From: Opitutia bacterium | GTDB lineage: Bacteria; Verrucomicrobiota; Verrucomicrobiia; Opitutales; Opitutaceae | Length of the DNA stretch: 64,000 bases | Assembly: GCA_016217545.1 (NCBI GenBank) | Contig: JACRHT010000017.1 | Coordinates: 806,001-870,000, forward strand | Reading direction: 5' to 3' | Shown here: in pieces, positions 29,162 through 58,860 of the stretch | Layout: each line of letters opens with the position of its first letter | Position numbering within the stretch: the stretch's first letter is position 1 | The notes under the pieces: generated by a model | Told to the model about the DNA's origin: nothing | What the model saw: only the letters and a program-made list of their open reading frames with translations | The model's database searches: none | Position numbers and translations under genes: made by a program

Positions 29162-29179
29162 CGCGGCGAAAAGCAGCCC

Positions 29180-29266
29180 GTGACAAGGACCAAGTAACAA
29201 GAACCCGCTCACCGATGCACCGCATGCTTCGCAGCTCCTGGCCCTTGTCACCTGGCCCTTCGCACT
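29180..29266. repeat. Inverted repeat of GTGACAAGGRCCA units between bat genes
   Basis: The left arm (29180-29202) has GTGACAAGGACCA and AGTAACAAG. The right arm (29238-29266) has the reverse complement in two tandem copies (CTGGCCCTTGTCA, CCTGGCCCTTCG). It fills the 112-bp gap between the DUF58 and BatA genes. Confidence 0.75.
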
Positions 29267-29273
29267 TCGTCGA

Positions 29274-30365: not shown

Positions 30366-32212
30366 TTCCCGATTTCCACTCACCGCACCTTCTTTGGCTG
30401 CTGCTTCCGCTGCTGTTGCTCTTCTCATGGGAGCTCGCGCGTCGCGCCACCACCGCCGCCGCCGATCTGCCGAAGGTCGCACGCGCTTGGGCCGGCTCGT
30501 TCGATGTCTCGCTCGGCACGCGCCACACCACCGCCGAGACGCGCCCGCGCCTCTGGCTGTGGTTCGGCCTCGCGCTGTGCATCATCGCGCTCGCCCGCCC
30601 GCAGTGGGGCGTGATCGAGGAAAAAGTCTTCGACCAGTCGCGCGAAGTGCTCATCGCCGTCGACCTCTCGCGCTCGATGCTGGCGCAGGACGTGAAGCCC
30701 TCGCGCCTCGACCGCTCGAAGCTCCTCATCACTTCGCTCCTCGACGGCCTGAAGGGCGAGCGCGTCGGCCTCGTGCTGTTCGCCGGCACCGCGTTTCTCC
30801 AGAGCCCGTTGAGCGCCGACTACGAGATCTTGCGGGAGTTTCTGCCGGCGCTGAAACCCGATTTCCTCCCCGAGGGCGGCTCGAACTACAAAGCCATGCT
30901 CGAAACCTCGATGCAGGCCTTCGGCACGTCGACCGCCGACCGCTACCTCATCATCCTCTCCGACGGTGAAAGCACCGAGGACGGCTGGAAGGAACTCGGC
31001 GAACAGCTCAAGACGAAGGGCATCCGCGTGATCGGTCTCGGCGTCGGCACCACGCAAGGCTCCTTCATCCCCGACGGCAGCGGCGGTTTCGTAAAGGACG
31101 ACCGCGGCGCCGTCGTGCTTTCGCGTCTCAACAGCTCCACGCTGCAAGACCTCGCGCAATCCACCGGCGGCGCTTACGCCGACGCCAGCGCGTGGATCGA
31201 CATGCCGTCGCTGCTCAAGAAAACCGTCGAAGCCGGCAGGAAGGGCGAGTTCTCCGAGAAAAACACCGCGCGCAAGATCGAGCGCTTCCAGTGGTTCCTC
31301 GCGCCCGGCCTGCTGCTGCTCTTCATCAGCTTCTGGGCCGAGTTCCCCGTGCGCCCCCGCGAGCGCGCGCTGCCGCTGGGCGGAAAAGCGCGAAATGCCG
31401 ATCGCGGAACGCGGAGCGCCCAAGGCACCGCTGCCCGCGTCGCGACCTTGGCTGCCATCTTCTGGCTCTCAGCTCTCAGCTCTCAACCCTCAGCTCTCGC
31501 CGCCGAAGGCGGCGAGTCCGACACCCTCTCCAAGCCGCTCACCACCACCGTCGCTCGCCTCGCCGACAAGAGCGCGCTCGCCGCGAAGGATTGCGCTGAC
31601 CTCGCGCAAACGACCCTCACCTACGGCGAACGCATGAAGTCCGGCCAGCAACGTCCGCCCGAAGGCGTCGTCAAGGACGCGCTCGCCGCCGTCGACCTCG
31701 GCGAGAAAGCCGACGCCAAGGCCGCCGACTGGCCACGCCTGCGCAAGGAACTCGAACAACTGTTGGAGAAACCGCCGGAAGACAAAAAGCAGGACCAGAA
31801 ACAAGACCAGCAGCAGAAGCAGGATCAAAAAAACCAACAGCAGAATCAGCAGAACCAAGATCAACAGAAACAGGACCAGCAGCAGCAACAGCAGCAGGAC
31901 CAACAGAATTCCGACCAGCAAAAGCAACAGGAGCAGCAGAAGCAGCAACAGGACGCCTTCGGCGACATGAAGGACCAGAAAGAGCCGCCGAAAACCGACG
32001 ACGAAAAACAACCTCCACAACAGCCCCCGCAGCCGCAGACCCAGAAAGTCGGCGGCCAGAAGGAAAAGAAAATGGAAGTCCCGCTCGATCCCGACCTCGC
32101 CATGCCGCTCCAGAAGCTCGAACAGGTCCGCAATCAGGATTCGCCCGCCAAGCTCCAACAGCTCATGCAAGGTCAGCCGCAAAAAGCGCCGAAGAAAGGC
32201 AAGGACTGGTAA
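30362..32212 (+). CDS. BatB vWA protein fused to a BatC-like Gln/Asp/Lys-rich region
   Basis: 616 residues. Helices at about 10-25 and 60-75 are followed by a vWA domain with the MIDAS VDLSRSMLAQD and D in LSDGEST, then a helix at about 318-335. Residues about 370-455 are a BatC-like soluble part with KSGQQRPPEGVVKDALAAVDLG. Residues about 460-555 are an extreme low-complexity segment of Q, D, K and N, probably extended or disordered. A final stretch has VPLDPDLAMPLQKLEQVRNQDSPAKLQQLMQ. A tandem repeat at 31465-31498 encodes LSALSSQPSALA within the linker. The gene overlaps both neighbours. The fusion of BatB and BatC is inferred from position and sequence. Confidence 0.85.
   Translation: MIPDFHSPHLLWLLLPLLLLFSWELARRATTAAADLPKVARAWAGSFDVSLGTRHTTAETRPRLWLWFGLALCIIALARPQWGVIEEKVFDQSREVLIAVDLSRSMLAQDVKPSRLDRSKLLITSLLDGLKGERVGLVLFAGTAFLQSPLSADYEILREFLPALKPDFLPEGGSNYKAMLETSMQAFGTSTADRYLIILSDGESTEDGWKELGEQLKTKGIRVIGLGVGTTQGSFIPDGSGGFVKDDRGAVVLSRLNSSTLQDLAQSTGGAYADASAWIDMPSLLKKTVEAGRKGEFSEKNTARKIERFQWFLAPGLLLLFISFWAEFPVRPRERALPLGGKARNADRGTRSAQGTAARVATLAAIFWLSALSSQPSALAAEGGESDTLSKPLTTTVARLADKSALAAKDCADLAQTTLTYGERMKSGQQRPPEGVVKDALAAVDLGEKADAKAADWPRLRKELEQLLEKPPEDKKQDQKQDQQQKQDQKNQQQNQQNQDQQKQDQQQQQQQDQQNSDQQKQQEQQKQQQDAFGDMKDQKEPPKTDDEKQPPQQPPQPQTQKVGGQKEKKMEVPLDPDLAMPLQKLEQVRNQDSPAKLQQLMQGQPQKAPKKGKDW
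31465..31498. repeat. Tandem CTCTCAG repeat inside batB/C gene
   Basis: About five copies of CTCTCAG/CTCTCAA read in frame and give LSALSSQPSAL. It is the same unit as the repeat inside the DUF58 gene. Confidence 0.75.
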
Positions 32213-43917: not shown

Positions 43918-46242
43918 TCAATTCTCCGCCAGCGAGGCCGCATCGCCCACGAGTCCGACGAACTCCGCGCGGTAGCCGCCGGCATCGTCGCCGGTGCCCT
44001 CGCGCGCCCAGTCGGAGATGGCCGCGAAACTGGCTTCGCCGTGATGCGGCGAATCCTTCAAGCGCATGCCGAACGCCGCGACCGCCGCCGCGAACTTGAA
44101 ATCCACGCTCGCATCCGCAAACGCCTGGCCGCTGTCGCGCAGCGGGAACTCGAGCTTCGTGCTCACGTCGCCCGCCGGCTCCTTGTAACGAATCTTCAGC
44201 GTCAACAGCTCGCCGTTCGCACCAGCCAGACCCCGCGCGTTTGTCATCCGCCCACCGTCATCGGTCTTCCGTCCTCCGACGTCCGTCTTCTGATACTTCA
44301 GCGCGTCGACCGAGCCGACATCGGGCATCGCCACGCCGACCGGGATCACCTCGTAGAGCGCCGTGACCGTGTGGCCCGCGCCGATTTCGCCGGCGTCGAC
44401 CTTGTCGTTGTTGAAATCTTCCTTCCGGAGCATGCGGTTCTCGTAACCGATGAGGCGATACGCCTGCGCCACCGCCGGATTGAACTCCACCTGGAGCTTC
44501 ACGTCTTTCGCGATCGTGACGAGCGTGCCGCCAGCCTGCTCGACCAGCGTCTTTTTCGCCTCAGCCAGCGAGTCGATGTAGGCGTAATTGCCGTTACCCT
44601 TGTCGGCCAGCTGCTCGAGCGTGCTGTCCTTGTAGTTGCCCATGCCGAAACCGAGCACACTCAGGAACACACCGCTCTTCGCCTTCTCCTGGATCAAGCC
44701 CGTCAGCTCGCTCTCGCTCGACACGCCGACGTTGAAGTCGCCGTCCGTCGCCAGCACCACGCGGTTGACGCCGCCACTGACGAAGTTCGCCTTCGCGATG
44801 TCGTAAGCGAGCTGGATGCCAGCCGCGCCGTTCGTCGAACCCTCGGCCTGCAGCTGATCGATGGCGGAAATGATCTTCGCCTTCTCGCGCACCGGCGTCG
44901 ATGGCAACGCCATGCCCGACGCGCCCGCGTAGACCACGATGGCCACACGGTCATCCGCGCGGAGCTTTTCCAACATCATCCGCATCGACTGCTTCACGAG
45001 CGGGAGCTTGTTCGCCGCATTCATCGAGCCGGACACGTCCAACAGGAACACGAGATTCGCCTTCGGCCGCGCCGCGTCGCTGACCTCGCGGCCCTTCAAA
45101 CCGATGCGCACGAGCCGGTGCTCCGGCGCCCACGGCGCGCTCGCCACCTCCATATGTGCGGCAAACGGCGCGCGATCCGTGGGCGGCGCGTAGCGATACG
45201 GGAAATAGTTCACGAGTTCCTCGATGCGCACCGCCCCCTTCGGCGGGAGAATCTTTTGCTGAAGGAAGCGCCGCACGTTCGCGTAGGACGCCGTGTCGAC
45301 GTCGACCGAGAACGTCGACAGCGGGTTCTGCGCGACAGTGAGAAACGGATTCTCCTCGGTATGCGCGTAGCTTTCGGTGTTCGACGGCTCCGTCTGCGAA
45401 AGCACCGGCCCGCCGGAGACGCTCAACGGTTTGCGCTTCGCGTCCAGAGTTGAAACCATCCGCGCGGCCGCCGGGCGAGAACCGGCCGCCCACCCGTAGC
45501 CGAACGTCACCTGCTCCTGCGTGGAGCCTGCGCTGGCCGGCGCCGCACCGGTCACGGCGAATTGCTGGAGCTTGATCGCGTCATTGCCCTGATTCGCCCG
45601 CAACTCGAGGGGTGCTGAGATCGGCGCGTCACCACTCGCAACCTGATCGGTGGCGCTCACACCCGCCAGCGCGACCTGCGCGGCCTCAATCGGTGGCGGC
45701 GGCGGTGGGGTCGACGGCAAAGCAAACGTCACAGCCGGACGCTGCGCCTGCACTTCCGCCGCGCGCGACTCCAATTCGCTGCGACGCGCGACCTCGGCGC
45801 CCGCCGCCTTCGCACGCATCGCGTCCGCCATCGCCTCGTTCATCTCGATGTAGCGCTTCTGCTCCTTCGATTGGTATTCGGCGGACGTGAAGAACATCAC
45901 CGTGAAACACGCCGCCGCGAGGCTGGCGGTCATGTAATAGAGCGCGGGAAATTGCAGGAGCTTGCTGCGTTTCCGACGATACTCGTCGACCGGCTCCGCT
46001 TTCGGCTGCGCGGCCAGCACTGCGCTCGCATCGATGACGGGCGCATTCGCCATCGTCGCCGGCTCTGCCGCCAGCGCGTCGCCCAGCATCGCCGCTGCGG
46101 CGCGAATCTCGTCCACCGCTTTCTGCGCCTCGGGCTGCTGCAGCAGCCACTGCTCAAACTCGGCGCGTTCCGCCGGCTCCATCTCGCCGAGCGCATAAGC
46201 GGTCAGGCGGGGATCGTCTTGGTTGTATTCCGAAATTTTCAT
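43918..46242 (-). CDS. Anti-sigma-like domain + TM + YfbK-type vWA-DUF3520 protein
   Basis: 774 residues. Residues 8-50 (DPRLTAYALGEMEPAERAEFE) look like the N-terminus of anti-sigma/zinc-finger proteins but without Cys. A membrane helix lies at about 99-119. A polar, Pro-rich stretch (about 120-290) follows, then the YfbK von Willebrand N-region (FSVDVDTASYANVRRFLQ), the vWA domain with a full MIDAS motif (D402 in LLDVSGSMNAANKLPL, LATDGDFNVG), and the C-terminal DUF3520 part ending GGYRAEFVGLV. It lies 26 bp after the ECF sigma gene with a good AAGGAAA Shine-Dalgarno, so it is the likely sigma partner. A repeat at 44251-44291 codes in frame for KTDVGGRKTDDGGR. Confidence 0.88.
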   Translation of the reverse strand: MKISEYNQDDPRLTAYALGEMEPAERAEFEQWLLQQPEAQKAVDEIRAAAAMLGDALAAEPATMANAPVIDASAVLAAQPKAEPVDEYRRKRSKLLQFPALYYMTASLAAACFTVMFFTSAEYQSKEQKRYIEMNEAMADAMRAKAAGAEVARRSELESRAAEVQAQRPAVTFALPSTPPPPPPIEAAQVALAGVSATDQVASGDAPISAPLELRANQGNDAIKLQQFAVTGAAPASAGSTQEQVTFGYGWAAGSRPAAARMVSTLDAKRKPLSVSGGPVLSQTEPSNTESYAHTEENPFLTVAQNPLSTFSVDVDTASYANVRRFLQQKILPPKGAVRIEELVNYFPYRYAPPTDRAPFAAHMEVASAPWAPEHRLVRIGLKGREVSDAARPKANLVFLLDVSGSMNAANKLPLVKQSMRMMLEKLRADDRVAIVVYAGASGMALPSTPVREKAKIISAIDQLQAEGSTNGAAGIQLAYDIAKANFVSGGVNRVVLATDGDFNVGVSSESELTGLIQEKAKSGVFLSVLGFGMGNYKDSTLEQLADKGNGNYAYIDSLAEAKKTLVEQAGGTLVTIAKDVKLQVEFNPAVAQAYRLIGYENRMLRKEDFNNDKVDAGEIGAGHTVTALYEVIPVGVAMPDVGSVDALKYQKTDVGGRKTDDGGRMTNARGLAGANGELLTLKIRYKEPAGDVSTKLEFPLRDSGQAFADASVDFKFAAAVAAFGMRLKDSPHHGEASFAAISDWAREGTGDDAGGYRAEFVGLVGDAASLAEN
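44251..44291. repeat. Tandem GTCNTCYG repeat inside the vWA gene
   Basis: About five degenerate copies of GTCNTC(C)GTCCTCYG are translated on the minus strand as KTDVGGRKTDDGGR. It is the same unit family as at 33675-33710. Confidence 0.75.
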
Positions 46243-46268
46243 GGTCGTTTCCTTTTCTGGGGCGCGCC

Positions 46269-46808
46269 TTAGTCGGCCTGCGCCGCCATCTCCTTCCGCA
46301 GCCGCGCAACCGCGGTGTGCAGGATGAAGCCGACATTCGTCACCGACAGCGACGTGATGCGGCTGATTTCCTTGTAGCTAAAACCGTTTTGAAACTTGAG
46401 GCGCACGACCTCCTGCTGGTTGCGCGGCAGGCGCTCGATGAGCTTCAACACCGCGGCCTGCGCCTCGGCCCGCTCCGCGCCCGCGCCCGGCAGCGGCTCG
46501 GCGGTCGTCAGGCGCTCGGCCTGGCCTTCTTCGAAGAACTTCATGCGCCCCTCCTTCCGCAAGACGTCGAGCGCGCGGTTGCGGCACACCGTGAACAGCC
46601 ACTCCGCGAGGTGCCCCTCGACGTCGGCCGGCTTCTGCGCGAGCAATTTGACGAACGTGTCCTGCACGACGTCGCGCGCGCGGTCGGCGTCTCCGTGCAG
46701 GAGTCGAGTGGCATAGCGCAGCAACGGCGCTTGATGGCGGGCGACCGCCGTCTCCACGAAGGCATGGCTTTCATTGATTGTTCCTGGGGTGTTCACGTCA
46801 CCTGCCAT
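46269..46808 (-). CDS. ECF RNA polymerase sigma factor
   Basis: 179 residues. Region 2 is seen in RYATRLLHGDADRARDVVQDTFVKLLAQ with WLFTVCRNRALDVLRKE, and region 4 in LPRNQQEVVRLKFQNGFSYKEISRITSLSVTNVGFILHTAVARLRK. It directs RNA polymerase to alternative promoters. The next gene, 26 bp downstream, carries an anti-sigma-like N-terminus, a membrane helix and a vWA domain, so activity is probably controlled at the membrane. It starts 60 bp after the RDD gene of the membrane cluster and may be in the same transcript. Confidence 0.93.
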   Translation of the reverse strand: MAGDVNTPGTINESHAFVETAVARHQAPLLRYATRLLHGDADRARDVVQDTFVKLLAQKPADVEGHLAEWLFTVCRNRALDVLRKEGRMKFFEEGQAERLTTAEPLPGAGAERAEAQAAVLKLIERLPRNQQEVVRLKFQNGFSYKEISRITSLSVTNVGFILHTAVARLRKEMAAQAD

Positions 46809-46868: not shown

Positions 46869-47681
46869 TCAACGCGCCACCGCAGCAGCCGGCGCGCCGC
46901 CCACCGCCGCCGACTCAGGCCGCGCTCCGAACACCACCTCCACCACGTTGCGCACGAACTGCTCGTCCGAAATCCCCTCGTCCACTTCGGCCGGCAACGT
47001 CGTCAGCGACCGGAAATGCCGCGCCAGCTCCGCAAACAGCGTCACCCGCGCCGCGTCGTCCAACTCCTCGCGCCGCCACAACGCCTGCAACGCCGCATAC
47101 GCCAGCGCCGGGCTGATCTGCGCCCGCAACCGCGCCGCCACGTGCTGCTGCCCGCGCAGCGAGTTGTATTTCGCCAGCACAATGCCGCCAAGATCCACCC
47201 GCACCGGCGGCGCCTCGTGCACCACGATGGTCGCCGCCGCAAAATCCCCCAGCCGCTGGCTCTTCCGCCCCATCAGCGCCGCCACGCCACCGACGAGATA
47301 CGCGACCGGCAACACGTCGATCGCGCGCAGCAGATTGCGAATCACGATCTGCGAAAACCGCAGCGGCAACCCGCGCTCGTCCATCACGCGCAGCCGCAAC
47401 ATCCGTTTCCCGAGCGTCTGCCCGTTCCACAGCCACTCCAACACGATGCCGTAGCCGGTCACCCAGACGAAAAACCCGATCCGCACCGCGCCGCGCGCAA
47501 CGTCCGCACTCAGCAATCCCAGCAACAAAATCGCCGCCGAGATCGCCGTCCACGCCGCCATGATCGTCAGCGCGTCGACAAACCACGCCGCCAGCCGCGT
47601 CACCGGGCTCGCCAGATGAAACGTGAAACTCACGCCCTCGGGCGTGCGCACGCGCAACCGATCGACGCGCTCGTCGCTCAC
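46869..47681 (-). CDS. RDD family membrane protein
   Basis: 270 residues from a GTG overlapping the SpoIIM stop. The RDD core is readable in PVTRLAAWFVDALTI and GQTLGKRMLRLRVMDERGLPLRFSQIVIRNLLRAIDVLP, with three membrane helices at about 35-60, 68-85 and 125-140. The C-terminal 100 residues are soluble and helical. RDD proteins are often exporters or ion transporters of unclear function. It is the last gene of the MoxR-DUF58-SpoIIM module, a set that is also known in Actinobacteria. Confidence 0.88.
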   Translation of the reverse strand: MSDERVDRLRVRTPEGVSFTFHLASPVTRLAAWFVDALTIMAAWTAISAAILLLGLLSADVARGAVRIGFFVWVTGYGIVLEWLWNGQTLGKRMLRLRVMDERGLPLRFSQIVIRNLLRAIDVLPVAYLVGGVAALMGRKSQRLGDFAAATIVVHEAPPVRVDLGGIVLAKYNSLRGQQHVAARLRAQISPALAYAALQALWRREELDDAARVTLFAELARHFRSLTTLPAEVDEGISDEQFVRNVVEVVFGARPESAAVGGAPAAAVAR

Positions 47682-48688
47682 GACGCCGCCTCCTTCGCCT
47701 TGCCGCGCCCGACCCAGCCGAAATACGCGACCAGCAACCCCAGCTCCACCACGCCGAAAGCGATCTTCAACGCATACGGGATCGCCGGCTCGTGATACTG
47801 CGACAAATACGACTCCACCACGCCCGCCCACACCAGCATCAGCGCCGTGCCCGCAGCGAGCGTCGCCACGTCATCCGCCACCGCGCGCAACCGCACCGCC
47901 AGCGGACGCCCGTCGTCGCGTCCGATCACCGCGCGCGCCAGCACGAAACCACCAGTCGCGCCAACGAGGATCGCCGGAATCTCGATCACGCCGTGCGGCA
48001 GCAGCCAGCCCGCGAGAAACACGCCCTGCCCCGCCAACAAATAATCCGCAATCACCGCGCCGAGAATCACGCCGTTGTAGAACAGCAGCACGATCGTGCC
48101 CGCGCCCCACGCGAAACCGAGCGCCAGCGCGAAGAGCGACACGCGCGTGTTGTGCGTCATCAGCTCGCCCGCAAACGTCGCCTTGTGACCCGCCAGCCGG
48201 TCCTTCATCGCCGCTTCCTCCTCGGCGACGCGATCCGCCGGGTCGCCGCGCAGATGCGAAAACGGCATCAACGCCTCCTTCGCCTCCGGGTCCACCGCCA
48301 CCGCCACGCCGCCGAAGATCGCACCGACCAACGTGATCACGACCGTGAGCAACAGCGCCCGCGCGTGCCGCCGCAGCGTCTGCGGAAACGTCGCGCTCAA
48401 CCACTGCCACGGCCGCAACCGCGCCGACCCGACCCGCCGCGTGCCGTGGATCTCCGCGTAAGCCCGCGCCACCAGCAGCTCCAGCCGCCGGCGCATTTCC
48501 GGCTCCGCCGAAAACGACGCCACGCGCGCCAAATCCGCGCCCGCTCGCCGGTAGAGATAGTCCAGTTCCTTCGCCTCCGCGAGCGACAGCGGCGCCCACG
48601 CGTCGCGCTGGCGACGGTCGAGCATCTTCTCCAGCCGCAGCCAATACGGCTCCTCCGCGGCCACGAATCTCGCGAGATCGACGATCAC
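47678..48688 (-). CDS. SpoIIM-family (stage II sporulation protein M) membrane protein
   Basis: 336 residues from a GTG overlapping the DUF58 stop. A soluble N-terminus (IVDLARFVAAEEPYWLRLEKMLDRR) contains LSLAEAKELDYLYRRAGADLARV, typical of the DUF95/SpoIIM group in non-sporulating bacteria. Four or more helices follow, with TFAGELMTHNTRVSLFALALGFAWGAGTIVLLFYNGVILGA and a GLLLPHGVIEIPAI-like WLLPHGVIEIPAILVGATGG as hallmarks. Function outside sporulation is unknown; it goes with RDD, DUF58 and MoxR. Confidence 0.9.
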   Translation of the reverse strand: MIVDLARFVAAEEPYWLRLEKMLDRRQRDAWAPLSLAEAKELDYLYRRAGADLARVASFSAEPEMRRRLELLVARAYAEIHGTRRVGSARLRPWQWLSATFPQTLRRHARALLLTVVITLVGAIFGGVAVAVDPEAKEALMPFSHLRGDPADRVAEEEAAMKDRLAGHKATFAGELMTHNTRVSLFALALGFAWGAGTIVLLFYNGVILGAVIADYLLAGQGVFLAGWLLPHGVIEIPAILVGATGGFVLARAVIGRDDGRPLAVRLRAVADDVATLAAGTALMLVWAGVVESYLSQYHEPAIPYALKIAFGVVELGLLVAYFGWVGRGKAKEAAS

Positions 48689-50016
48689 AGCAAACCGCCT
48701 CCCTTCACGCGCAGGTATTGCCCGACCATTTCCGCCGCCAGCCGCTCGTGTTCGAGCAACGCGCACGTCACGCCATGCGGGCGCAGCAACCGCGCGATCT
48801 CGTGCGCCTCGCGCCACTGGTAGTGTCCGGCCAGCCGCGCCACCATCTCCGCCTCGTTCGCCACCGGCCGGGTGAACAACGCCTCCGCTCCGGGCGCGCG
48901 CACCTGGTTCACGAGCACGAGATGCTGCCGCGAGAGCACGGGAATGTGTTTCACGAACTCCTCCGCCAGCACCGGATCACTCAAATCCGTGAGAAAAACC
49001 AGCAGCGAGCGCCGCTGCAGCCGCGTGCGCAGCAGCGCGAACAACTCCGCAAAATCCGGCGTCGTCTCGCTCGGCTCCAGCGCATGCACGGCCTCGCGAC
49101 AGGCCCCGTAGTGCGTCGCGCCGCTCCCGGCGCGCACGAACGTCCGCACGCGCGCATCGTGCGCCACCAACCCGAATCGGTCGCCCTGCCGCCCCGCCGC
49201 GAGCAACAGCACGAGCGTCGCCGTGATCTGCCGCTCGAGCGTCGTCACGCTGCGCCCCTCGATCGTCACCGGTCGCGCCGACAGCCGCGACGCGTCGATC
49301 ACGACATATATCTCCTGCGTGCGCTCGACCTGGAAAATCTTCGTCACCGGCCGGCCGCGCTTCGCCGTGCCTTTCCAATGCACCTCGTCGAAGCTGTCGC
49401 CCGGCTGATACTCGCGCAGCCGCTCGAACTCGCGCCCGCGCCCCACGGTCCGCCGCAGTTGCACCCCGGCCAGCCCCCGATTCAGGAACAGCGCCGCCAG
49501 CTGCCGCCGCTCGGAAAACAAGTTCGGATAGACGCGCAACTCGCCCGCGAGCGGCTGCTGTGCGCGCAATTGCCAGAAGCCGAGCCGCGAATCCGCCTCG
49601 AGGCACACAGGGCCGGGCGTGTAGCGGCCGCGGCGCTCGCCCGTGCATTCCCAGTGCACGAGCACGCGCTTGCCACCCGCGGGCAACGCCACGCGGAGGA
49701 CGCGCTCCTTGCTGGCGAACACGCCCGGCAGCGCGAGACCCAGCCGCACTTCGGCCGGCGCGCCTGCGTCGTAGCTGAGCACGAGCGGCAACTTCGCCCC
49801 GCGATCCTTCGTCAGCCGGCTCACCGCCTCACCCGTCACGACCGGCAGGTGTCCCGCGCGCAACGTCAGCAACAGATCCACGCCCGCCACGAGCGCCAAC
49901 GCCGCCAGAGCGATCACGCACAGCGGCCAAAGTTCCGCCAACGGCCCCGCGAGCGCAGCCGCCGGCACGAGCGCCGCGACGCACCACAAAAGACGACGGG
50001 AGGGAACGGGGATCAT
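48685..50016 (-). CDS. DUF58 membrane protein of second MoxR module
   Basis: 443 residues. Two helices near the start (about 10-25, 30-50) are followed by a beta-sandwich part and the DUF58 signature VGRGREFERLREYQPGDSFDEVHWKGTAKRGRPVTKIFQVERTQEIYVVIDASRLS, with a vWA-like C-terminal fold (LLVFLTDLSD). It differs from the bat DUF58 by its membrane anchor and length. It follows the MoxR gene by 8 bp. Confidence 0.92.
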   Translation of the reverse strand: MIPVPSRRLLWCVAALVPAAALAGPLAELWPLCVIALAALALVAGVDLLLTLRAGHLPVVTGEAVSRLTKDRGAKLPLVLSYDAGAPAEVRLGLALPGVFASKERVLRVALPAGGKRVLVHWECTGERRGRYTPGPVCLEADSRLGFWQLRAQQPLAGELRVYPNLFSERRQLAALFLNRGLAGVQLRRTVGRGREFERLREYQPGDSFDEVHWKGTAKRGRPVTKIFQVERTQEIYVVIDASRLSARPVTIEGRSVTTLERQITATLVLLLAAGRQGDRFGLVAHDARVRTFVRAGSGATHYGACREAVHALEPSETTPDFAELFALLRTRLQRRSLLVFLTDLSDPVLAEEFVKHIPVLSRQHLVLVNQVRAPGAEALFTRPVANEAEMVARLAGHYQWREAHEIARLLRPHGVTCALLEHERLAAEMVGQYLRVKGGGLL

Positions 50017-50024
50017 GAAACGTC

Positions 50025-50990
50025 TCAGCGCGGCACCGCGACCTGCTCCAGCAACCGGTTCAGCACCTCGTTGACCGACAGCCCTTCGATCTCGAACTCC
50101 GGCCGCAGCACGATGCGGTGCGCGAGCACCGCCGGCGCGAGCTGCCGGATGTCGTCCGGCGTCACGTAGTCGCGTCCCTCGATCGCCGCCTTCGCCCGGC
50201 CGCCGAGCAACAGCGACTGCGTCGCGCGCGGGCCGGCGCCCACGAGCACGCTCTCGTCCGTGCGCGTCGCGCGCACGAGATCCACGATGTAAGCCATCAA
50301 CTCGTCGCGCACCGCGATCGCATCGAGGCTGGCGCGGAGCGTCGCCAGCTGGCCGCGTTCGAGCACCGCCTGCACGTCACCGCGCGCCAGCGCCGCCTCG
50401 GGCGCGTCGGCCGTGAGCATCCGACGCGCAAGCGAGATTTCGTCGTCGCGCGCGGGACACGCCATCTGGATCCGGAACATGAAACGATCCTTCTGGGCCT
50501 CGGGCAGCGGATAAGTGCCCTCGGACTCCGCCGGGTTCTGCGTCGCGAACACGGTGAAGTCCGGATCGAGCGCGTGCGTCTCGCGATCGATCGTCACACA
50601 GCGCTCCTGCATCGCCTGCAGCAGCGCGGCCTGCGTCTTCGCCGGCGCGCGGTTGATCTCGTCCGCCAGCATGAACGTCGTGAACACCGGCCCGCGCACC
50701 AGCGTGAACTGATTCGTCTGCAGGTTGAAGATGTTCGTGCCGGTGATGTCGGCTGGCATGAGGTCGGGCGTGAACTGCACGCGGCCGCTCTCCGCTCCGA
50801 GCACGTGGGCGAGCGTGCGCACCAGCAGCGTCTTCGCCACGCCAGGCACGCCTTCGAGCAGCGCGTGCTGGCGCGTGAGGATCGTGATGAGCGCCAGCTC
50901 GACCGCCGCCGACTGGCCGATGATGACCTTGGCGACTTCGCGGCGGGCCGCCGCGAGCGCGGCGAGGGTGGGTTCGAGTTTCTCGTTCAT
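50025..50990 (-). CDS. MoxR-family AAA+ ATPase, second module
   Basis: 321 residues. Walker A is [11 protein letters not shown], Walker B is [13 protein letters not shown], followed by [26 protein letters not shown] (as [10 protein letters not shown]) and the lid GADPRATQ-like [16 protein letters not shown]. It is the chaperone-like ATPase of the minus-strand membrane cluster. It lies 4 bp after the DUF4350-like gene and 8 bp before DUF58. It resembles the bat MoxR (27162) in layout but is a separate paralogue. Confidence 0.93.
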   Translation of the reverse strand: [321 protein letters not shown]

Positions 50991-50994
50991 AAAT

Positions 50995-52236
50995 TCAGCG
51001 CGGTTTCAGCTCCCGCACGAGCGTGTTGTAGGTTTCGGTCGGCGCCACCTTCGGGTCGCGCGCTTCCCACGCCGCGTTGAAACGCGCCGTCGCTGCCGCA
51101 TTGCCGCCCGCCCGCCGGGCCGCGCGCCACTCCTCGACGCACGCCGGCAACACCGCGCCCGCGCCGAGCGCCCGCCGCAGCAGCGCCGTGAGCCCCGCCG
51201 CCGGCTCGTAACCGAGTGCAATCTCGCCGCCGGCTTCGAGCGGATCGCGCACCGGATAAAACGCCACCGCGCGCCGCCACAGATACAGCGCCGCGAGCAA
51301 AGCGAGCAGCGCCAGCGCGCCACCCAAGCCATAGCGTCGCGCGAGAAATCCGACGCCGTTCTCCTCGCCGAGTCCGAGCGCGCTCTCGACGAACACCGCG
51401 CGCCGATGCCCGCCGACGAGCCACGCCACCAATCCGGTCGCGCGATTCTTCTGCATCGCCTCGTTGCTGAGCGCGAACGCGTCGCCGAGCAGCACGATCT
51501 TGCCCGCGCCGAAGGATCGCACAACCGCCACCGTCGACGGCCCGCGCGCGTAAAGCGTCCGCCACGGCGAGCCATCGGTCGGCTTGAAACACAGTTCGCC
51601 GTGCCACTCGAGAGTGGCCGTGAGCTGCGCCGGCGCCGTCGCATCGCGCTGCGCCGTGGGCGGCGCCAACAACGTCCGCACGCCGAGTCCGACCTGCCAT
51701 GCGTCGGCGATTGTTTTTTCCTCCGGCTCGCGTTTGGCGCGCCCACCGGGTCCGCGCGCCGGCTTCTTCGCTTTTTTGTCCTTCTCGTCTTCGTCCTCGC
51801 CGGCTCGTTTCTTCGCCTCGGCCTCACGCTTCTCCCGCGCTTTCTCCGCGGCGACCCACTCCTCTTCCTCGGCTTTGCTCACGCTCTGGAACGCCAGCAC
51901 CACCGTGCTGCCGGCGTTCGCCGCCGCGTTCAGCGCCGCGAGTTCATCCTCGGGAATTTTCTCCCAGTCGTGCCAGAGCAATCCCGGCAACACCACGAGT
52001 CGCGGCTCCGCGCCGAGCCGCGCGAGCGGCTTCAACTGCCGCTCGACGCGGAAATCCGGCAGAGTCTCCAGCGCCTCGTAAAGCGCGCGCGTGCCGAGCG
52101 CGTCCGACCGGAACGACGAGTAAGGCGGATACGCGTCGCCGCCGCCGAGCCGGATCGAAAACACCCATCCGAGCGCGAGCGCCGCCAACACCAGCGCGGC
52201 CACGGGAAACAACCAACGGAGCGCGCGGCGGTTCAT
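50995..52236 (-). CDS. DUF4350-like membrane protein
   Basis: 413 residues. A helix at about 8-25 is followed by a GATase-like sugar-binding region (SSFRSDALGTRALYEALETLP), then a highly charged Lys/Glu stretch (about 135-165), the segment SFGAGKIVLLGDAFALSNEA typical of DUF4350, a second helix at about 310-325 and a cytosolic tail. Proteins like this sit beside MoxR and DUF58 genes in many phyla; the function is unknown. The ATG overlaps the upstream stop (ATGA). Confidence 0.82.
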   Translation of the reverse strand: MNRRALRWLFPVAALVLAALALGWVFSIRLGGGDAYPPYSSFRSDALGTRALYEALETLPDFRVERQLKPLARLGAEPRLVVLPGLLWHDWEKIPEDELAALNAAANAGSTVVLAFQSVSKAEEEEWVAAEKAREKREAEAKKRAGEDEDEKDKKAKKPARGPGGRAKREPEEKTIADAWQVGLGVRTLLAPPTAQRDATAPAQLTATLEWHGELCFKPTDGSPWRTLYARGPSTVAVVRSFGAGKIVLLGDAFALSNEAMQKNRATGLVAWLVGGHRRAVFVESALGLGEENGVGFLARRYGLGGALALLALLAALYLWRRAVAFYPVRDPLEAGGEIALGYEPAAGLTALLRRALGAGAVLPACVEEWRAARRAGGNAAATARFNAAWEARDPKVAPTETYNTLVRELKPR

Positions 52237-53912
52237 CGCGGAGCCTCCAGTTGCCGCAGCCAATCGCGCGCCGCCTCGGCATTCGCGGGCTCATGGCCAT
52301 ACCACACCGCCTCGAACGCCTCGCGGCGCGCCCGGAAATCCTCCGCCACGCCCGACCGACCGAGCGCGCGCCGCCGCAGTTCGCGCTCGTAGTCGAGGTT
52401 CGTCTTGAACTTCGCCAGCGACAACAGCCCGTCGTGCGCGTGCGTCGCGATGGTCGCCAGGAAGAGCGCGCGCCACGCCAGCCGCCACTCGCCTTCCGCC
52501 AGTTTCGCGCGGGCGAGCGCGAGCCATTCGTGTGCGGGCAGGCGCGACGCCTCGACGTTTTCGTCGCGCAAATCCGGCGCCGCCGTGGGCAACGCGCCGG
52601 CCGCGCCGCCCGCGAGCGGGCGCGTCCGGTTGTGCTCGAAAACCTTCCACACGACCCAGAGCAACAGTCCCGCCACGATCGCGAGCAGCGCGTAGGCGCC
52701 GAACTGCAGGACATCCATCCAGCGCAGCGACGCCGTGCCATCCCGCGAGCGCGCCGGCGTCTTGTCGTCCTTGCCGCCGGGCAACAGGTCGGCGAGCCAA
52801 CGCTTCGCACCATCCAGCCAGCGCGAGACCGAGCGAACGACTTCGCGCGCGGTCTCGAAGGTCGCGCGCAGGAAACCCATGACGATGCCTTCCTTTTTCC
52901 TCCGTGCCTCCGCTGCCTCCGGCGGCGGCCGCAGCCGCCAGCGGAAATCCGGGCGCGCGAGCACCTCATCGAGCGCGCGATCGAGTTGCCGCGGCTCCAG
53001 CGCGACGGTCGGCGTCGGCGACACGTCCGCCGCGCGCGCGGTCGGCACGCCGCCGAGCCACAGCGTCGCGAACACGAGCGCCGCAATCCCCGCCCGCGCG
53101 GCCGTGCGTCGGGCCTGCTCGCGTCGCAGCACGAGCAGCAAATCGGCGCCGCTGCGGCGCGCCTCGCCGCGAAACACGCGCACGACGTAGAACGCCTTGA
53201 TCAACGGCCCGACCGCGAGGTGCGTCAGCGCGGCGATCACGGCGAGGAACGTCGTGTTGAAATACGACCAACCCGACAGCGCGAAAACCGTGTGCAGCCC
53301 GAGCCAGCGCGTCGCCAGCATCGGCACCACCACGAACGCCACCGCCACATTCAGAAAGACCATCGACCAGAGAATCGACAGGATCGCCAGCGCCCAGTGA
53401 TTTTGCGCCGGCCACAACATCGCCTGCTCCCAGGCCGCGCGCCGCCGCTCCGCCGCGCTCGCTCCGTCGCCCGACGGCAGCACGGCCGCGCTCTGGAAAT
53501 ACGCGTAGGCCCAGCCGAACGGCACACCGAAGCCCGCCGCGAGCGGCAGCACCACCACGCCCGGCGCCTGGAGGCGAAATTGCGCCGCACATTCGCGCGT
53601 CCAGTCGCGCGTGCGCCAGCGCGGGAGCGCGTCGCCGGTCAGGTGCGCGCGCAGATTCTGGGCGTAGCGGTGCTGCGCCGTTCGCATCACGCCAAAGGCC
53701 AGCGCCAGTCCCAGCGCTCCGAGCGCGATCGCGCCGTCACTCGGCACGAACCAGCTCACGTAAGCCCAGAAAAACACCACTCCGCACGCGAACGGCGCCG
53801 CGCCCGCGTAGTAGAGCCCGAGCGCACCGGGATGCGCGCGCAGCAGATGCACGGCCTCCTCGATCAGGTCGACCGCACGCGGGATCGTCTTTGCCTCAGG
53901 GCGTTTCGCCAT
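52233..53912 (-). CDS. Multi-TM protein with DUF4129-like C-terminus
   Basis: 559 residues. Residues 1-280 hold about six hydrophobic helices (YYAGAAPFACGVVFFWAYVSWF, ALGALGLALAFGVM, VLPLAAGFGVPFGWAYAYF, AILSILWSMVFLNVAVAFVVV). A further helix lies at about 285-300, then a polar loop, then a helix at about 415-435 and the DUF4129-like tail LAEGEWRLAWRALFLATIATHAHDGLLSLAKFKTN. DUF4129 proteins accompany MoxR/DUF58 genes and transglutaminases. Its 5' end overlaps the zinc-ribbon gene by 17 bp. Confidence 0.75.
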   Translation of the reverse strand: MAKRPEAKTIPRAVDLIEEAVHLLRAHPGALGLYYAGAAPFACGVVFFWAYVSWFVPSDGAIALGALGLALAFGVMRTAQHRYAQNLRAHLTGDALPRWRTRDWTRECAAQFRLQAPGVVVLPLAAGFGVPFGWAYAYFQSAAVLPSGDGASAAERRRAAWEQAMLWPAQNHWALAILSILWSMVFLNVAVAFVVVPMLATRWLGLHTVFALSGWSYFNTTFLAVIAALTHLAVGPLIKAFYVVRVFRGEARRSGADLLLVLRREQARRTAARAGIAALVFATLWLGGVPTARAADVSPTPTVALEPRQLDRALDEVLARPDFRWRLRPPPEAAEARRKKEGIVMGFLRATFETAREVVRSVSRWLDGAKRWLADLLPGGKDDKTPARSRDGTASLRWMDVLQFGAYALLAIVAGLLLWVVWKVFEHNRTRPLAGGAAGALPTAAPDLRDENVEASRLPAHEWLALARAKLAEGEWRLAWRALFLATIATHAHDGLLSLAKFKTNLDYERELRRRALGRSGVAEDFRARREAFEAVWYGHEPANAEAARDWLRQLEAPR

Positions 53913-54246
53913 GACCCGGATTGTCCAACGCCTCGCGCCACACCGTGCCTTCGTGCAGCTGCGGCGGCAGCGCTTTCAGAAACTGCCCAAAACCGTAGAA
54001 CGCGACCCAGAGCAACAGCACGCACGCCGCCGTCACGGCGACGTCGCCGCTCCGCGGCAGCCACGCCGCCGATGGCTTCGCCGCGCCCGTCGTCGCCACC
54101 GTTTTCGCGAGGCAGGTCGCGCACAAGACACGTCCGTCATGCTCCACGATGCACTCGCGACAAAAATCTCCTCCGCACGACGGACACCGCGCCACCGCCT
54201 CGCGCTCGGTGTGCCGCACGCATTTTCGCGTCGCGAACGAACTCAT
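53896..54246 (-). CDS. Small membrane protein with B-box-like zinc finger
   Basis: 116 residues. The start contains a Cys/His cluster: CVRHTEREAVARCPSCGGDFCRECIVEHDGRVLCATC, a B-box/zinc-ribbon layout that binds two metal ions. One hydrophobic helix follows at about 73-90 and a short polar tail. This architecture is shared with the larger protein at 54820-55386. It overlaps the upstream gene (ATGA) and the downstream gene by 17 bp. Confidence 0.75.
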   Translation of the reverse strand: MSSFATRKCVRHTEREAVARCPSCGGDFCRECIVEHDGRVLCATCLAKTVATTGAAKPSAAWLPRSGDVAVTAACVLLLWVAFYGFGQFLKALPPQLHEGTVWREALDNPGHGETP

Positions 54247-54818
54247 GACGGCAACGCCGGCGGCAGCGGAGGTGGCAGCGGCGGCGGAATCGGCGCCGCG
54301 CTCGCGCCACCGGACTCCGCGGGCGGGGCGACATCCGCGGCGTTCGCCGCCGCGAGATCGGCCTGCGCGGCTTCGATCAGCGGCCGGAGCTCGGCCAACA
54401 CTTTCCGCGTGCGCGGCAGGCGGCAGAGCGCGTTCACGTTTTCCTGCTGCACGGCCGTGATGACCACCACCCGGCAGCCGGCGCCGCGCAGGTGATTCCA
54501 GACGAGCAAGGCCGCGACCACCGCGCCGACGATGCTCATGCCCCACGCACCGCCTCCCGCGCTGTGCACGATCATAAGCGCCAGCAGGCCCACCACCACG
54601 AACACGCTCGCGTAGATGACTCGCCGCGCCGTGTGCACGATCAGCATGGCCTGGATGTCGCGCAGGTAGAACCGGCGGTAGGTTTCGTTGTAGCCGGTGG
54701 ACGTGAGATGCAGCAGGTGGTCCGGCGCGAGGCAGAGCTGCGAAAGCACGCCGAACCCGCGCTTCAACGGCGTGAGCTTGCGGTAAACGGGAGTGGAGGG
54801 AGCGGTGGTTTCGGCCAT
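54243..54818 (-). CDS. Two-helix membrane protein, unknown
   Basis: 191 residues. A cytosolic N-terminus contains GFGVLSQLCLAPDHLLHLTSTGYNETYRRFYLRDIQAMLI, followed by two helices at about 75-92 and 98-115. A cytosolic helical part (TAVQQENVNALCRLPRTRKVLAELRPLI) leads to a Pro/Ala-rich end (PPPLPPPLPPALPS). No family is recognised, though the RFYLRDIQAM segment looks like a PH-like membrane-associated domain. The ATG at 54818 lies one base after the stop of the upstream gene. Confidence 0.65.
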   Translation of the reverse strand: MAETTAPSTPVYRKLTPLKRGFGVLSQLCLAPDHLLHLTSTGYNETYRRFYLRDIQAMLIVHTARRVIYASVFVVVGLLALMIVHSAGGGAWGMSIVGAVVAALLVWNHLRGAGCRVVVITAVQQENVNALCRLPRTRKVLAELRPLIEAAQADLAAANAADVAPPAESGGASAAPIPPPLPPPLPPALPS

Positions 54819-54819
54819 G

Positions 54820-55386
54820 TCAGCGGAACAGCATCGAACCAAAAACGAACAGCCAGACGCCCACCTGGATCAGCGCGACGAGACCCGCGATCACGAGGCG
54901 GGTGCGCCGCCATCCCGGCACGAGGCTGCCGGGCTTTTTCCACGCGTAGAAGCAAACCCCCAGCGCGACCGGCGCGCTGATCAGCGTCAGCGGCCACATG
55001 ATCAGCGGCAGGAACGCCAGCACGAGCGCGATGCGATCATACAGGACGCGGTGGTTCTCCGGCAGCTTGCGCCGGTCCGCGCGGGTCTCGAGGCAGGACG
55101 GGCAGTAGTTTTTTCCGCTCATCGGCACCCGGCACACCGCGCACACGTAGCGCCCGCAGCCGTCGCACGCCACCTCGGCCCGGTTCTCGGCGTGGAAATA
55201 GCAATTGGCCTCGCCCGCCGCGGTCGCGCCGGCCCGCTCCACGCGCCGCGCCGCCGCGAGCGCCGGGAAACGCAGTTGCTCGAACTCGCCCTCGCACGCC
55301 GGGCAGCGCACGATGTCGACGCCCTGCCAGAAAACCTCCGGCACGGTGCGCCGGCACTTGGGGCACGCGAGCTTGTGCGGGGTCAT
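54820..55386 (-). CDS. Membrane protein with zinc-ribbon and B-box-like domains
   Basis: 188 residues. Two metal sites are visible: a first ribbon CPKCRRTVPEVFWQG...CPACEGEF at 8-40, and a B-box part CYFHAENRAEVACDGCGRYVCAVCRVPMSGKNYCPSC at about 62-100. Three hydrophobic helices end the protein (IALVLAFLPLIMWPLTLISAPVALGVCFYAW, LVIAGLVALIQVGVWLFVFG). The start overlaps the RDD-GYF stop (ATGA). It goes with the B-box protein at 53896 as part of the same membrane set. Confidence 0.78.
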   Translation of the reverse strand: MTPHKLACPKCRRTVPEVFWQGVDIVRCPACEGEFEQLRFPALAAARRVERAGATAAGEANCYFHAENRAEVACDGCGRYVCAVCRVPMSGKNYCPSCLETRADRRKLPENHRVLYDRIALVLAFLPLIMWPLTLISAPVALGVCFYAWKKPGSLVPGWRRTRLVIAGLVALIQVGVWLFVFGSMLFR

Positions 55387-56120
55387 TTCGTGCGGATCAC
55401 ACGCGTGTCGCACATGCGGTCGTGCAGTGCGCGCTTCTCGTCATCGAACGCCGCGAGGATGTAGCCGATTAGCAGCGTGAGACTGCTCACGACTTCCGCC
55501 AAGGCGCGGCCGACCGCGCGACCGCCCGTGATCGGCGATCCGTCGCTGCGCACGACCTTCAGCCCGAGCGCCATCTTGCCCGGCGTCGCGCCGTGGCGGG
55601 TCAGGAAAAACCACTGGAAGGTCACATTCACGAGTGTCGAGCACAGCATCGCCGTGCCCTGATACGCGAGCCACTTGCCGAGATCGAATTGGTTGATCTG
55701 CGGCGAATACAAGAACTTGCCGAAAAACACCGCCGACAACCCGAAGCTGATCGCCGCGTTCGGAATCCACAGCAGCAACCCGTCGAGGAACTTCGCCAGG
55801 AACCGGACCCAGAATCCCGCGAAGTGCACCTCGCCCGGGTGCTGCACGCCCTCGCGCACGCGTTGGAAATACTCGTCCTTCTGCTCCGCGCTCACGAGCT
55901 TGCCGTCGTGCGACACGAGGTCGCGCGTGAAAAAACGCCCGCCCGACACCGTGCACACGCCCGTCGTCGGCTCGACTTCGCTCCAGCGCTGCCAATCCGC
56001 CATGCCCTTGGCCCACACGAGCGTGTCGGCCACCACGATGTTGTCGCGCACCAGACCCTCGAACGCCGTCGCATTCACCGGTCCCATGCGATTCCCTCCA
56101 TTCGCGTAAAACCACTCCAT
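55383..56120 (-). CDS. GYF_2-RDD membrane protein
   Basis: 245 residues. The N-terminal GYF_2-like domain (EWFYANGGNRMGPVNATAFEGLVRDNIVVADTLVWAKGMADWQRWSEV) usually binds peptides. A linker and the RDD membrane domain (AGFWVRFLAKFLDGLLLWIPNAAISF ... ATPGKMALGLKVVRSDGSPITGGRAVGRALAEVVS) with three or four helices follow. It is the first gene of the tightly packed operon running to 46869, 112 bp downstream of the sigma-vWA fusion gene. Confidence 0.88.
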   Translation of the reverse strand: MEWFYANGGNRMGPVNATAFEGLVRDNIVVADTLVWAKGMADWQRWSEVEPTTGVCTVSGGRFFTRDLVSHDGKLVSAEQKDEYFQRVREGVQHPGEVHFAGFWVRFLAKFLDGLLLWIPNAAISFGLSAVFFGKFLYSPQINQFDLGKWLAYQGTAMLCSTLVNVTFQWFFLTRHGATPGKMALGLKVVRSDGSPITGGRAVGRALAEVVSSLTLLIGYILAAFDDEKRALHDRMCDTRVIRTK

Positions 56121-56232: not shown

Positions 56233-58860
56233 TCAGCGCTGCACCGCACGCTGCGCCGACTCCATCAAAGCGATCAGCTCCGCGCGATAGCCCCCCGCAT
56301 CCTCGCCGACCGCGCCACGCGCCCACCGCGCCACGTCGTCCAACCGCGCCGCCTCCGCCGGCCCGGCCCGCAACACCTCGCCAAACAACCCGGCTGCCAC
56401 CGCAAAACGGAAATCCACCGACGCCGACGCAAACTCCCCCGCGCCCACCGCGCCCGACGAAAGTCCGTAATACGGGCTTTGCCCGTCATCGCCCGGCAAC
56501 CGCGCCGCGACGCGCACGCGCCAAGCTTCGCCTTCCGCGCTCACGCTCGAGTCCGCCCCTGCTCCGGTCGCGGGTTCGACCTCGAACAGCGCCGACAGCG
56601 TTTCCCCGGGCAGCACACGCCTCCGCTGCGCGATCGGAATCTCCGCTCCGCGCACGACCGGCGTCATCTCCTCGTCACCGATCCGCCGCACCCGCGCCAC
56701 GCGCGCCGGGTCGAACTCCACCGTCGCACTCACCTGCTCCGCCACCGGCGCGAACAACCGGTCCAGTTGCGAAACCAACGCCTGCTCCGCCTCGGCCTGC
56801 GTGTTCACGTAGCCGCTGCCGCCGCGCGCACGGGCCGCCAGCGCTTCGAGTCGCGCATCGATCCGATCCGCGCGGCCGAAGCCGAAGATCGCCAGCCGCA
56901 CGCCGGCGTCGCGTTGTCCGTCGATCAACGCGCCGAGCTCCTCCTCGCTCGTCGCGCCCATGTTGAAATCGCCGTCGGTGCAGAGAATCACCACGTGTTC
57001 CCCGCCCGCGCCCGCATCCGCCGCCGCCATCGCGAACGCCTCGCGCAGGCCCGCGCCGCCATTCGTGCGCCCCTTCGCCTCGAGCGCATCGATCGCCCCG
57101 CGCACCTCGCGCTCGTTCGCCAATCGCGCCGGCGGCAACAGAATCGTCGGCTCGCCCGCATACGTCACGATGCCGACGCGATCCTCCGGCTGCAATCGGC
57201 GCAACAGGCCCGCCACCGCCGCCTGCACCAGCGGCAACCGATTCGGCGCATCCATCGAACCCGAAACATCCAGCAGGAGAATCACGGTCGCCGGCGCGCG
57301 TGTGGCCGGCGCATCGTCGCGCGCCCGCACCGCCACGCGCACAAGGCGACGCGCCGAATTCGACGGCGAAACGCTCGACTCCACGCGCGTTGAAAACACC
57401 GGTGCCTCGCTTCGCGGCGGCTCGGGCGACGGCGGCAACGCACCCAGCAGCGCGCCGACGCTCACTTCCGCGCGCGTCGGCCAGCGCGACGCCGTCAGCG
57501 CCTTGCGCAGCGCCGCGATCGGGGCCGTGTCCAATTTGTCCGACAACGGCCGCAAGGGCTTCTGCTCGACCGCGCGCAACTCCTCAATTTTCTCCGTCGG
57601 CGCGCGCGCGCCGGTCGGACCGGAATCGGGCGGCGCGCTAGTCCCGGAGGACGCGGCTCGGTCAGCGCCACGAGCCTCGGTAACGGCAACAGAGCGCGAG
57701 CCGCCCGGCGTTTCCGCAGAGACAGAAATCGCCGGCGCACCGCCGGAAATGCCACCCGCCTCCGCGACCGCGCTCTTCGTCGCGGCGGCTTCCGGCGGGA
57801 CGCTCCTTGCCGGATCGGCGGTGCCTCCGCCGCGCGCCGGTGGCGGGGTGCTTTGGACACTCAATGCCGTCGTCGCGCTCGGCCCGCCCGGCGCACGCTC
57901 GCTTGCGCCCGCATCGGTCGTCGCGGCGGCTGCCATAGTCGTGCGGTTCGGCGACCTCAGTCCGCTCGCGCTCGGGAAACCTCGATCTTCCGCTGCGGCT
58001 GCCTTCCGCTCGGGCGGCGCCGCATCGCCGGCTACGCGGCGAATCGCCACGCGCTGCTGCCCGCCCGCGTCAGACGTCGCAACGGCGCTCGCGCTCGGCG
58101 CCTCGCGACGCGCAAACCAGACCGCCGCTGCGATCGCGACCACACCCAAACCGACAGCGACCACCCAAAGCCACACCGCCCGCCGGCGTTTCGCGCTCGG
58201 ACGCGGCCGGAACGTTTCCGCGCCCCGCGCCAGCACCTGCCGGATCACCTCCAACGTCACGCGCAGCTCCGCCACGTGCGCGCGTCGCTCCGGGGTCTCG
58301 CTCGCGAGCGCATCGCCACTGGTTCCGGCGAGCGCCAGACGCACGGCGCGGGCATCGTCGAGCGCCGAGCCGTTCAGTTTGCCGATCGCGGTGTGCAACA
58401 CCTGCGCCGCGTTGGCCGGCGTCAGGTCGGCGATCTCCGCAATCTCATCCAGATCGAAGCGATGCTTCAGGTGGAGCCGCACCAGCTCCTGTTGCTTGGA
58501 GGTGAGTCGCCGAAAACGCCCCGCAAGGCGCGCGCTCGCGTCCTGGGATTCCCCGCCCGTGTCGTTTTCGAGTTCCGCTTCCGCCGGGCTCGCTCCGGCG
58601 CGGCGGAGGTCGGCCACGATTTGTCGGCGCGCGGCGGCGAACACGAATTCCCGCGGAATCTCGTCCGCCACACCCGGCGGCGGCACCCATTCGCGCCAAA
58701 ACACCTCGAGCGAGGCGGCGGCCTTGCCCTCGTCCCCGTCCCACAATTCCACGGCATAGCTCCGCACTTCGGTGGCATGCCGGCTTTGCAGTTCGGCGAC
58801 GACCGCGGAGGAGGAAGGAGATCGGGCGGAGGCGCTCAAAAGGGGGCTCCAATTCCTCAT
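56233..58860 (-). CDS. Sigma-factor-like domain fused to TM and vWA-DUF3520
   Basis: 875 residues. Residues 20-90 (VEVFWREWV-like LEVFWREWVPPPGVADEIPREFVFAAARRQIVADLRR) look like a degenerate sigma region 2. Residues 117-163 are a good region 4 helix-turn-helix (RRLTSKQQELVRLHLKHRFDLDEIAEIADLTPANAAQVLHTAIGKLN). A helix lies at 228-250 and an Ala/Ser/Pro-rich stretch at 250-445. The vWA domain has MIDAS D531 in LLDVSGSMDAPNRLPL, and CTDGDFNMG and the DUF3520 end GEDAGGYRAELIAL follow. The last half is clearly homologous to the protein at 43918. Sigma and sensor in one membrane chain is unusual. GTG 58866 and ATG 58860 are both possible starts. Confidence 0.85.
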   Translation of the reverse strand: MRNWSPLLSASARSPSSSAVVAELQSRHATEVRSYAVELWDGDEGKAAASLEVFWREWVPPPGVADEIPREFVFAAARRQIVADLRRAGASPAEAELENDTGGESQDASARLAGRFRRLTSKQQELVRLHLKHRFDLDEIAEIADLTPANAAQVLHTAIGKLNGSALDDARAVRLALAGTSGDALASETPERRAHVAELRVTLEVIRQVLARGAETFRPRPSAKRRRAVWLWVVAVGLGVVAIAAAVWFARREAPSASAVATSDAGGQQRVAIRRVAGDAAPPERKAAAAEDRGFPSASGLRSPNRTTMAAAATTDAGASERAPGGPSATTALSVQSTPPPARGGGTADPARSVPPEAAATKSAVAEAGGISGGAPAISVSAETPGGSRSVAVTEARGADRAASSGTSAPPDSGPTGARAPTEKIEELRAVEQKPLRPLSDKLDTAPIAALRKALTASRWPTRAEVSVGALLGALPPSPEPPRSEAPVFSTRVESSVSPSNSARRLVRVAVRARDDAPATRAPATVILLLDVSGSMDAPNRLPLVQAAVAGLLRRLQPEDRVGIVTYAGEPTILLPPARLANEREVRGAIDALEAKGRTNGGAGLREAFAMAAADAGAGGEHVVILCTDGDFNMGATSEEELGALIDGQRDAGVRLAIFGFGRADRIDARLEALAARARGGSGYVNTQAEAEQALVSQLDRLFAPVAEQVSATVEFDPARVARVRRIGDEEMTPVVRGAEIPIAQRRRVLPGETLSALFEVEPATGAGADSSVSAEGEAWRVRVAARLPGDDGQSPYYGLSSGAVGAGEFASASVDFRFAVAAGLFGEVLRAGPAEAARLDDVARWARGAVGEDAGGYRAELIALMESAQRAVQR

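Follow-up and report, generated by a model that had tools for sequence, protein, structure and literature searches.

By its sequence, the 875-residue protein encoded on the reverse strand of a 64,000-nucleotide stretch of Opitutaceae DNA (the window) is a diverged version, fused into one chain, of a two-gene unit made up of an ECF sigma factor and a membrane anti-sigma-vWA-YfbK protein, an intact example of which lies in the same window. Our preferred though tentative reading is that it acts as a membrane-anchored sigma mimic, which would regulate the ECF sigma/anti-sigma pair encoded in the same locus by putative competitive binding to the partners, and would thus be PhyR-like in logic, not in family. 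Since its sigma-like part no longer has the residues for binding RNA polymerase, it probably tunes the neighbouring true sigma factor instead of initiating transcription on its own.

The frame runs from an ATG at 58860 to a stop at 56233, and a GTG 6 bases upstream of this ATG would give 877 residues instead (Table 1). The original prediction had described a single polypeptide here, suggesting a search for the same architecture in other Verrucomicrobiota and voicing the concern that a sequencing frameshift might have made it unique to this genome. A whole-protein search of 13 congeneric genomes gave relatives in 12, and together with G156, G214, G152, G171, G200 and G220, which belong to four further genera of the family, a fused relative is present in 18 genomes of five Opitutaceae genera (counting G003, where the frame is divided between contigs L064 and L065). 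In samples from the order (373 genomes) and the phylum (388), no stop-free long frame with both a sigma part and a vWA domain was seen outside the Opitutaceae. That the frame stays open in all 18, in one of them across two contigs, rules out a frameshift or a chimeric ORF; in the G004 orthologue, Sigma70_r4_2, vWF_A, VWA and YfbK_C all lie above cut-off in one 898-residue frame.

Table 1. Features of the fused gene, its partner pair and related loci. dN/dS values are for the window protein against G007; ASD, anti-sigma-like segment; TM, transmembrane helix.
Feature	Position	Strand	Length or residues	Evidence and remarks
Fused ORF	56233..58860	-	875 aa	sigma2-sigma4-ASD-TM-linker-vWA-YfbK_C
Sigma2-like domain	58591..58818	-	15-90	profile match, AlphaFold2 model, fold match; dN/dS 0.10 (17-90)
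Degenerate region 2.2 helix	58690..58731	-	44-57	core-RNA polymerase motif [DE]xxQ[DE] lost
Sigma4-like domain with HTH	58366..58539	-	108-165	profiles, model; dN/dS 0.05; HTH net charge -4
Anti-sigma-like segment (ASD)	58198..58365	-	166-221	profile-profile match to partner anti-sigma domain; dN/dS 0.12
Single transmembrane helix	58105..58194	-	223-252	KRRR at start, N-terminus inside (predicted); dN/dS 0.66
Variable Ala/Pro/Gly-rich linker	57610..58104	-	253-417	extracytoplasmic (predicted)
vWF_A-like region ahead of vWA	57316..57609	-	418-515	PF12450, E 0.009, under cut-off here
vWA domain	56806..57285	-	526-685	PF00092, E 4.7e-17, above Pfam cut-off; MIDAS DVSGS residues 531-535 (57256-57270); dN/dS 0.075
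YfbK_C (DUF3520)	56251..56751	-	704-870	PF12034, E 7.7e-12, above Pfam cut-off
Co-directional gene block between fused gene and partner pair	46869..56120	-		same block in G006, G007, G214
Intact stand-alone ECF sigma, partner and paralogue of the fused domain	46269..46808	-	179 aa	Sigma70_r2 E 2e-10, r4_2 E 9e-12
Partner membrane protein	43918..46242	-	774 aa	anti-sigma domain-TM-vWF_A-vWA-YfbK_C
vWA-less partner YfbK proteins	L063:8473-9765, L064:7204-8457, L066:10054-11364, L072:6434-7771, L073:8071-9351, L075:9701-10993			
vWA-less partner YfbK proteins, further loci	L028, L029, L031, L130, L141			

Though the resemblance to sigma factors is modest in the window protein alone (PRK09645/SigL type, E 4e-7 over residues 15-180; sigma70-ECF TIGR02937, E 1e-6; Pfam Sigma70_r4, only E 0.21), it is secure once related sequences are included. 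Sixteen of the 18 fused homologues match Sigma70_r4_2 in Pfam, 2 match Sigma70_r2 and 6 match PhyR_sigma-like, while a profile built from the fused sequences only finds SigL first (6e-11) and PhyR next (5e-9). The AlphaFold2 model of residues 1-258 is confident (mean pLDDT 86.4) and has helices at 15-87 (sigma2), 108-163 (sigma4), 170-211 (extra) and one long helix at 223-252. The structures it resembles most are compact forms, namely EcfG-NepR (Z 10.8), SigG1 (10.6), PhyR-NepR (10.2) and SigW-RsiW (9.9); RNA polymerase-bound sigma factors aligning over both domains give about 26 Å rmsd. Among 59 sigma domains placed in a tree, the fused sequences cluster together, nested inside the clade of YfbK-linked partner sigmas, and the closest stand-alone relatives are ECF sigmas directly preceding genes for membrane vWA-YfbK proteins. 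Because the group has a support of 74/98 and appears in 70% of the bootstrap trees, a single origin of the fusion is likely but unproven. Tree, profile and fold agree on the sigma ancestry that had been predicted, region 2 included, and rule out an unrelated HTH protein in its place.

In the fused family, the stretch between sigma4 and the transmembrane helix matches the anti-sigma domain of the partner membrane protein (hhalign probability 99.4, E 2.7e-21), and the protein is therefore a fusion of sigma, anti-sigma, transmembrane, vWA and YfbK_C parts. The original prediction had missed this segment, as well as the window's intact sigma/anti-sigma-vWA pair; the parts it did list are confirmed, and its interpretation was incomplete in that the protein has an anti-sigma-like domain of its own and descends from the neighbouring pair. 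A sigma-type and an anti-sigma domain are thus present in one chain across the family, the latter being degenerate in the window's own copy and likewise in the clade to which it belongs. The basic residues at the start of the single membrane helix predict that it holds a cytoplasmic N-terminus, as had been proposed, and the vWA domain would then lie outside. The C-terminal half is the expected YfbK-type vWA protein, with MIDAS residues (DxSxS...T...D) invariant in all of the 23 aligned relatives and a vWF_A match that reaches E 1.4e-17 in the G004 orthologue. The model of residues 418-875 (pLDDT 84) has a vWA fold; other vWA proteins come out on top when it is compared with known structures, ArnA/ArnB and inter-alpha-inhibitor heavy chain 1 among them. 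This half belongs to the YfbK family (vWF_A, VWA and YfbK_C), other members of which, for instance in L154 and L156, have no sigma part.

It had originally been supposed that the protein is a tethered sigma factor awaiting release. The sigma ancestry and the predicted membrane tether stand, but a ready sigma activity is not supported. Region 2.2, the part of a sigma factor that contacts the clamp helices of beta' (PMC7406223, PMC8103513), carries the motif [DE]xxQ[DE] in none of the 18 fused proteins, compared to all 41 of the stand-alone partner sigmas examined, that is 14 aligned partners, where it reads DxVQD, and 27 further ones that were checked and carry [DE]xxQ[DE]. The degeneracy of region 2, rightly noted at the outset, is in fact the key point. 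In HMMER alignments the motif is present in SigL and EcfG and missing from the PhyR sequences, as it is from the fused proteins. The net charge of the sigma4 HTH averages +3.5 in the partners (range +2 to +4) compared to -0.4 in the fused proteins. The homology and the fold are thus those of an ECF sigma, but because two defining features, the core motif and the positively charged HTH, were tested and are absent, we do not class the protein as a functional ECF sigma. Rescue of the kind known for EcfP-type sigmas, where STTA stands in place of DAED and phosphorylation by a kinase restores the core contact (PMC8103513), is unlikely because the positions that have lost their acidic residue show no conserved Ser/Thr in the fused set. 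These losses, and the far greater divergence of region 2 in the fused proteins (mean pairwise identity 0.32, compared to 0.80 for the partners), make it unlikely that we are dealing with a true sigma factor, released from its fused anti-sigma domain by regulated intramembrane proteolysis on a vWA signal in the manner of IutY or ECF52, even though the order of parts matches IutY and the ECF48/52/53 proteins (PMC5411451, PMC8999054), sigma4 and part of region 2.3-2.4 are kept (F74 and R78 being invariant across the fused set), and SigL is the best match of the fused-only profile.

Between near relatives, the substitution pattern indicates purifying selection on sigma2, sigma4 and the anti-sigma-like segment. 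It is strong in comparison with G007, where the vWA domain is similarly constrained and the transmembrane helix and the linker are much less so (Table 1; linker residues 253-425, 40% identity, dN/dS 0.56); with G006 as the reference the regions differ less (0.38-0.45 for the sigma parts and 0.77 for the linker). As this selection persists despite the lost core motif and HTH charge, the domain would be maintained for a role other than that of an ordinary sigma. It speaks, together with the conservation of the LTxKQQE/HTH pattern of sigma4 across genera and the synteny with the partner pair, against the sigma-like part being a mere cytoplasmic docking or stability module of a membrane vWA protein, unlinked to sigma regulation. 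We consider this rather unlikely, bearing in mind that the RNA polymerase and DNA functions look lost, that in the window clade the cis anti-sigma segment has degenerated as well and that two genomes, G200 and G220, have the fused protein and no intact partner sigma. A membrane-bound DNA-binding regulator following ToxR/CadC logic, with the sigma4 HTH at -35-like sites and not acting as a sigma factor, would agree with sigma4 being the best conserved cytoplasmic part and resembling many HTH regulators in fold, but it is improbable given the HTH charge, which is negative on average, and more so in the window protein, compared to clearly positive in the partners.

The two-gene unit in the window (43918-46808) is homologous to the fused protein in every domain and represents the ancestral type; unlike the fused protein, it has two genes, an intact sigma and a well conserved anti-sigma domain. 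Its membrane protein starts DDPRLTAYALGEME... and has weak matches to zf-HC2 and to DUF4880, a domain known from FecR-type anti-sigma factors. The gene order in the genus is a divergent OppA-like gene, the fused gene, the ECF sigma and the anti-sigma-vWA-YfbK gene, and the fused gene and the sigma are co-directional and about 50-155 bases apart in G001, G002, G003 (on the contig with the fused gene's C-terminal part), G004, G008, G009, G012 and G156. An RDD-to-SpoIIM block separates them in four genomes (the window's, G006, G007 and G214) and does not lie between them in others. It contains RDD/GYF, a zinc-ribbon protein, two small ORFs, DUF4129, DUF4350, MoxR, DUF58, SpoIIM and a second RDD-like protein, the ORF for which comes after the SpoIIM end of the block in the window. 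A second gene cluster, by appearance a MoxR/Bat-type operon, lies at 27036-34854 on the forward strand.

An intact partner sigma occurs in 15 of the 18 fused genomes, usually adjacent and co-directional, and was not found in G010 (86% complete), G200 or G220 (both at least 93% complete). In G200 a broken remnant of it (region 2 only, DVVPD; L109:5200-5400) lies directly upstream of the intact fused gene. Partner YfbK proteins with the anti-sigma domain, vWF_A and YfbK_C but lacking the vWA core are recurrent in several genera (Table 1), and are about 430 residues long in several congeners. The idea of a complementary loss, in which the partner drops its vWA as the fused protein supplies one, was not used because such partners also occur in G016, G028, G046, G116 and G159, for which the search gave no fused gene. 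A further kind of sigma and membrane vWA-YfbK pair, more distantly related, is seen in the same taxonomic order at L111-L119 (genomes G017, G015, G035, G046, G036, G077, G013, G081 and G022), with frames of up to about 1500 residues and a different N-terminal domain (LEARVVAWVLGEASAFEVAELE).

If the fused protein is a sigma mimic, its sigma-like domain would in the resting state be closed over its own anti-sigma segment, and would open either when the outward vWA domain enters a state set by metal or ligand or when the extracytoplasmic part is cleaved. Once exposed, it could capture the anti-sigma domain of the partner protein, by which the true sigma factor would be freed; alternatively, the true sigma could itself be captured by the released anti-sigma segment of the fused protein. 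In both cases a single sigma factor would receive the signals of two vWA sensors through partner competition, and the little-studied vWA-YfbK proteins of the Opitutaceae would gain a likely role as extracytoplasmic sensors of ECF sigma systems. Speaking for the mimic are the conserved fusion, the usual nearness of the intact partner pair, the loss of core motif and HTH charge in a domain still under purifying selection, the homology of the anti-sigma-like segment, and the compact fold matches and PhyR hits. Counting against it, the fused protein is kept in G200 and G220 without its presumed target. Additionally, the surfaces of sigma that bind anti-sigma domains overlap those that bind RNA polymerase and DNA (PMC7406223), so the divergence could have weakened anti-sigma binding too. 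The distance correlation of the fused sigma is 0.34 both with the partner anti-sigma domain and with its own (13 taxa), and thus does not discriminate.

Fusions of sigma, anti-sigma and transmembrane parts are already known. IutY of Pseudomonas putida (ECF243) shares with the fused protein a sigma-type N-terminus, a single transmembrane helix, an anti-sigma function and a large extracytoplasmic part in one chain, but in IutY an active sigma is freed by Prc and RseP and the anti-sigma domain is periplasmic (PMC5411451), whereas the fused protein has lost the core motif, has an anti-sigma-like domain predicted to be cytoplasmic, and has vWA-YfbK as its outer part. Of the fused sigma/anti-sigma proteins expected to need proteolysis, IutY is the sole one for which this step has been worked out by experiment (PMC8999054). 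The ECF48, ECF52 and ECF53 proteins of Actinobacteria, for instance SCO4117, have the same order of sigma, anti-sigma domain, transmembrane helix and extracytoplasmic domain, but with a zinc-type anti-sigma domain (ZAS) and carbohydrate-binding or other outer domains, vWA or YfbK_C not being described among them (PMC8999054). Known too is the sigma mimic described in reviews, PhyR, an anti-anti-sigma factor of Alphaproteobacteria, whose sigma-like domain shares the sigma2-sigma4 fold and the compact fold match, and is described as degenerate at both core and promoter contacts (PMC8103513). PhyR is, however, a soluble, phosphorylated response regulator with NepR as its partner (PMC8103513), whereas the fused protein is membrane-bound, with vWA-YfbK and an anti-sigma domain of its own; because there is no receiver domain among its Pfam matches, we do not class it as PhyR, and it is only possibly PhyR-like in its working.

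The original prediction knew of no vWA version of a sigma fusion, and we likewise found no literature linking ECF sigma/anti-sigma to vWA/YfbK, in a search of mostly open-access papers, so that this absence is no proof. Nor did the papers searched describe a vWA-YfbK version whose core motif is disabled and whose parental pair persists intact alongside. With some reserve we propose that it may be a one-component, membrane-spanning partner switch, in which a sigma mimic gated by an extracytoplasmic, metal-dependent vWA domain competes for the anti-sigma of the neighbouring ECF sigma. In that case, a fused sigma/anti-sigma pair may have given rise in the Opitutaceae to an independent mimicry of the PhyR kind that works without phosphorylation. 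As the intact ancestral pair is adjacent to the conserved fused family, the change from a sigma to a possible sigma regulator can be traced residue by residue. The ideas of the fused sigma and of the sigma mimic appear here combined in one conserved family.
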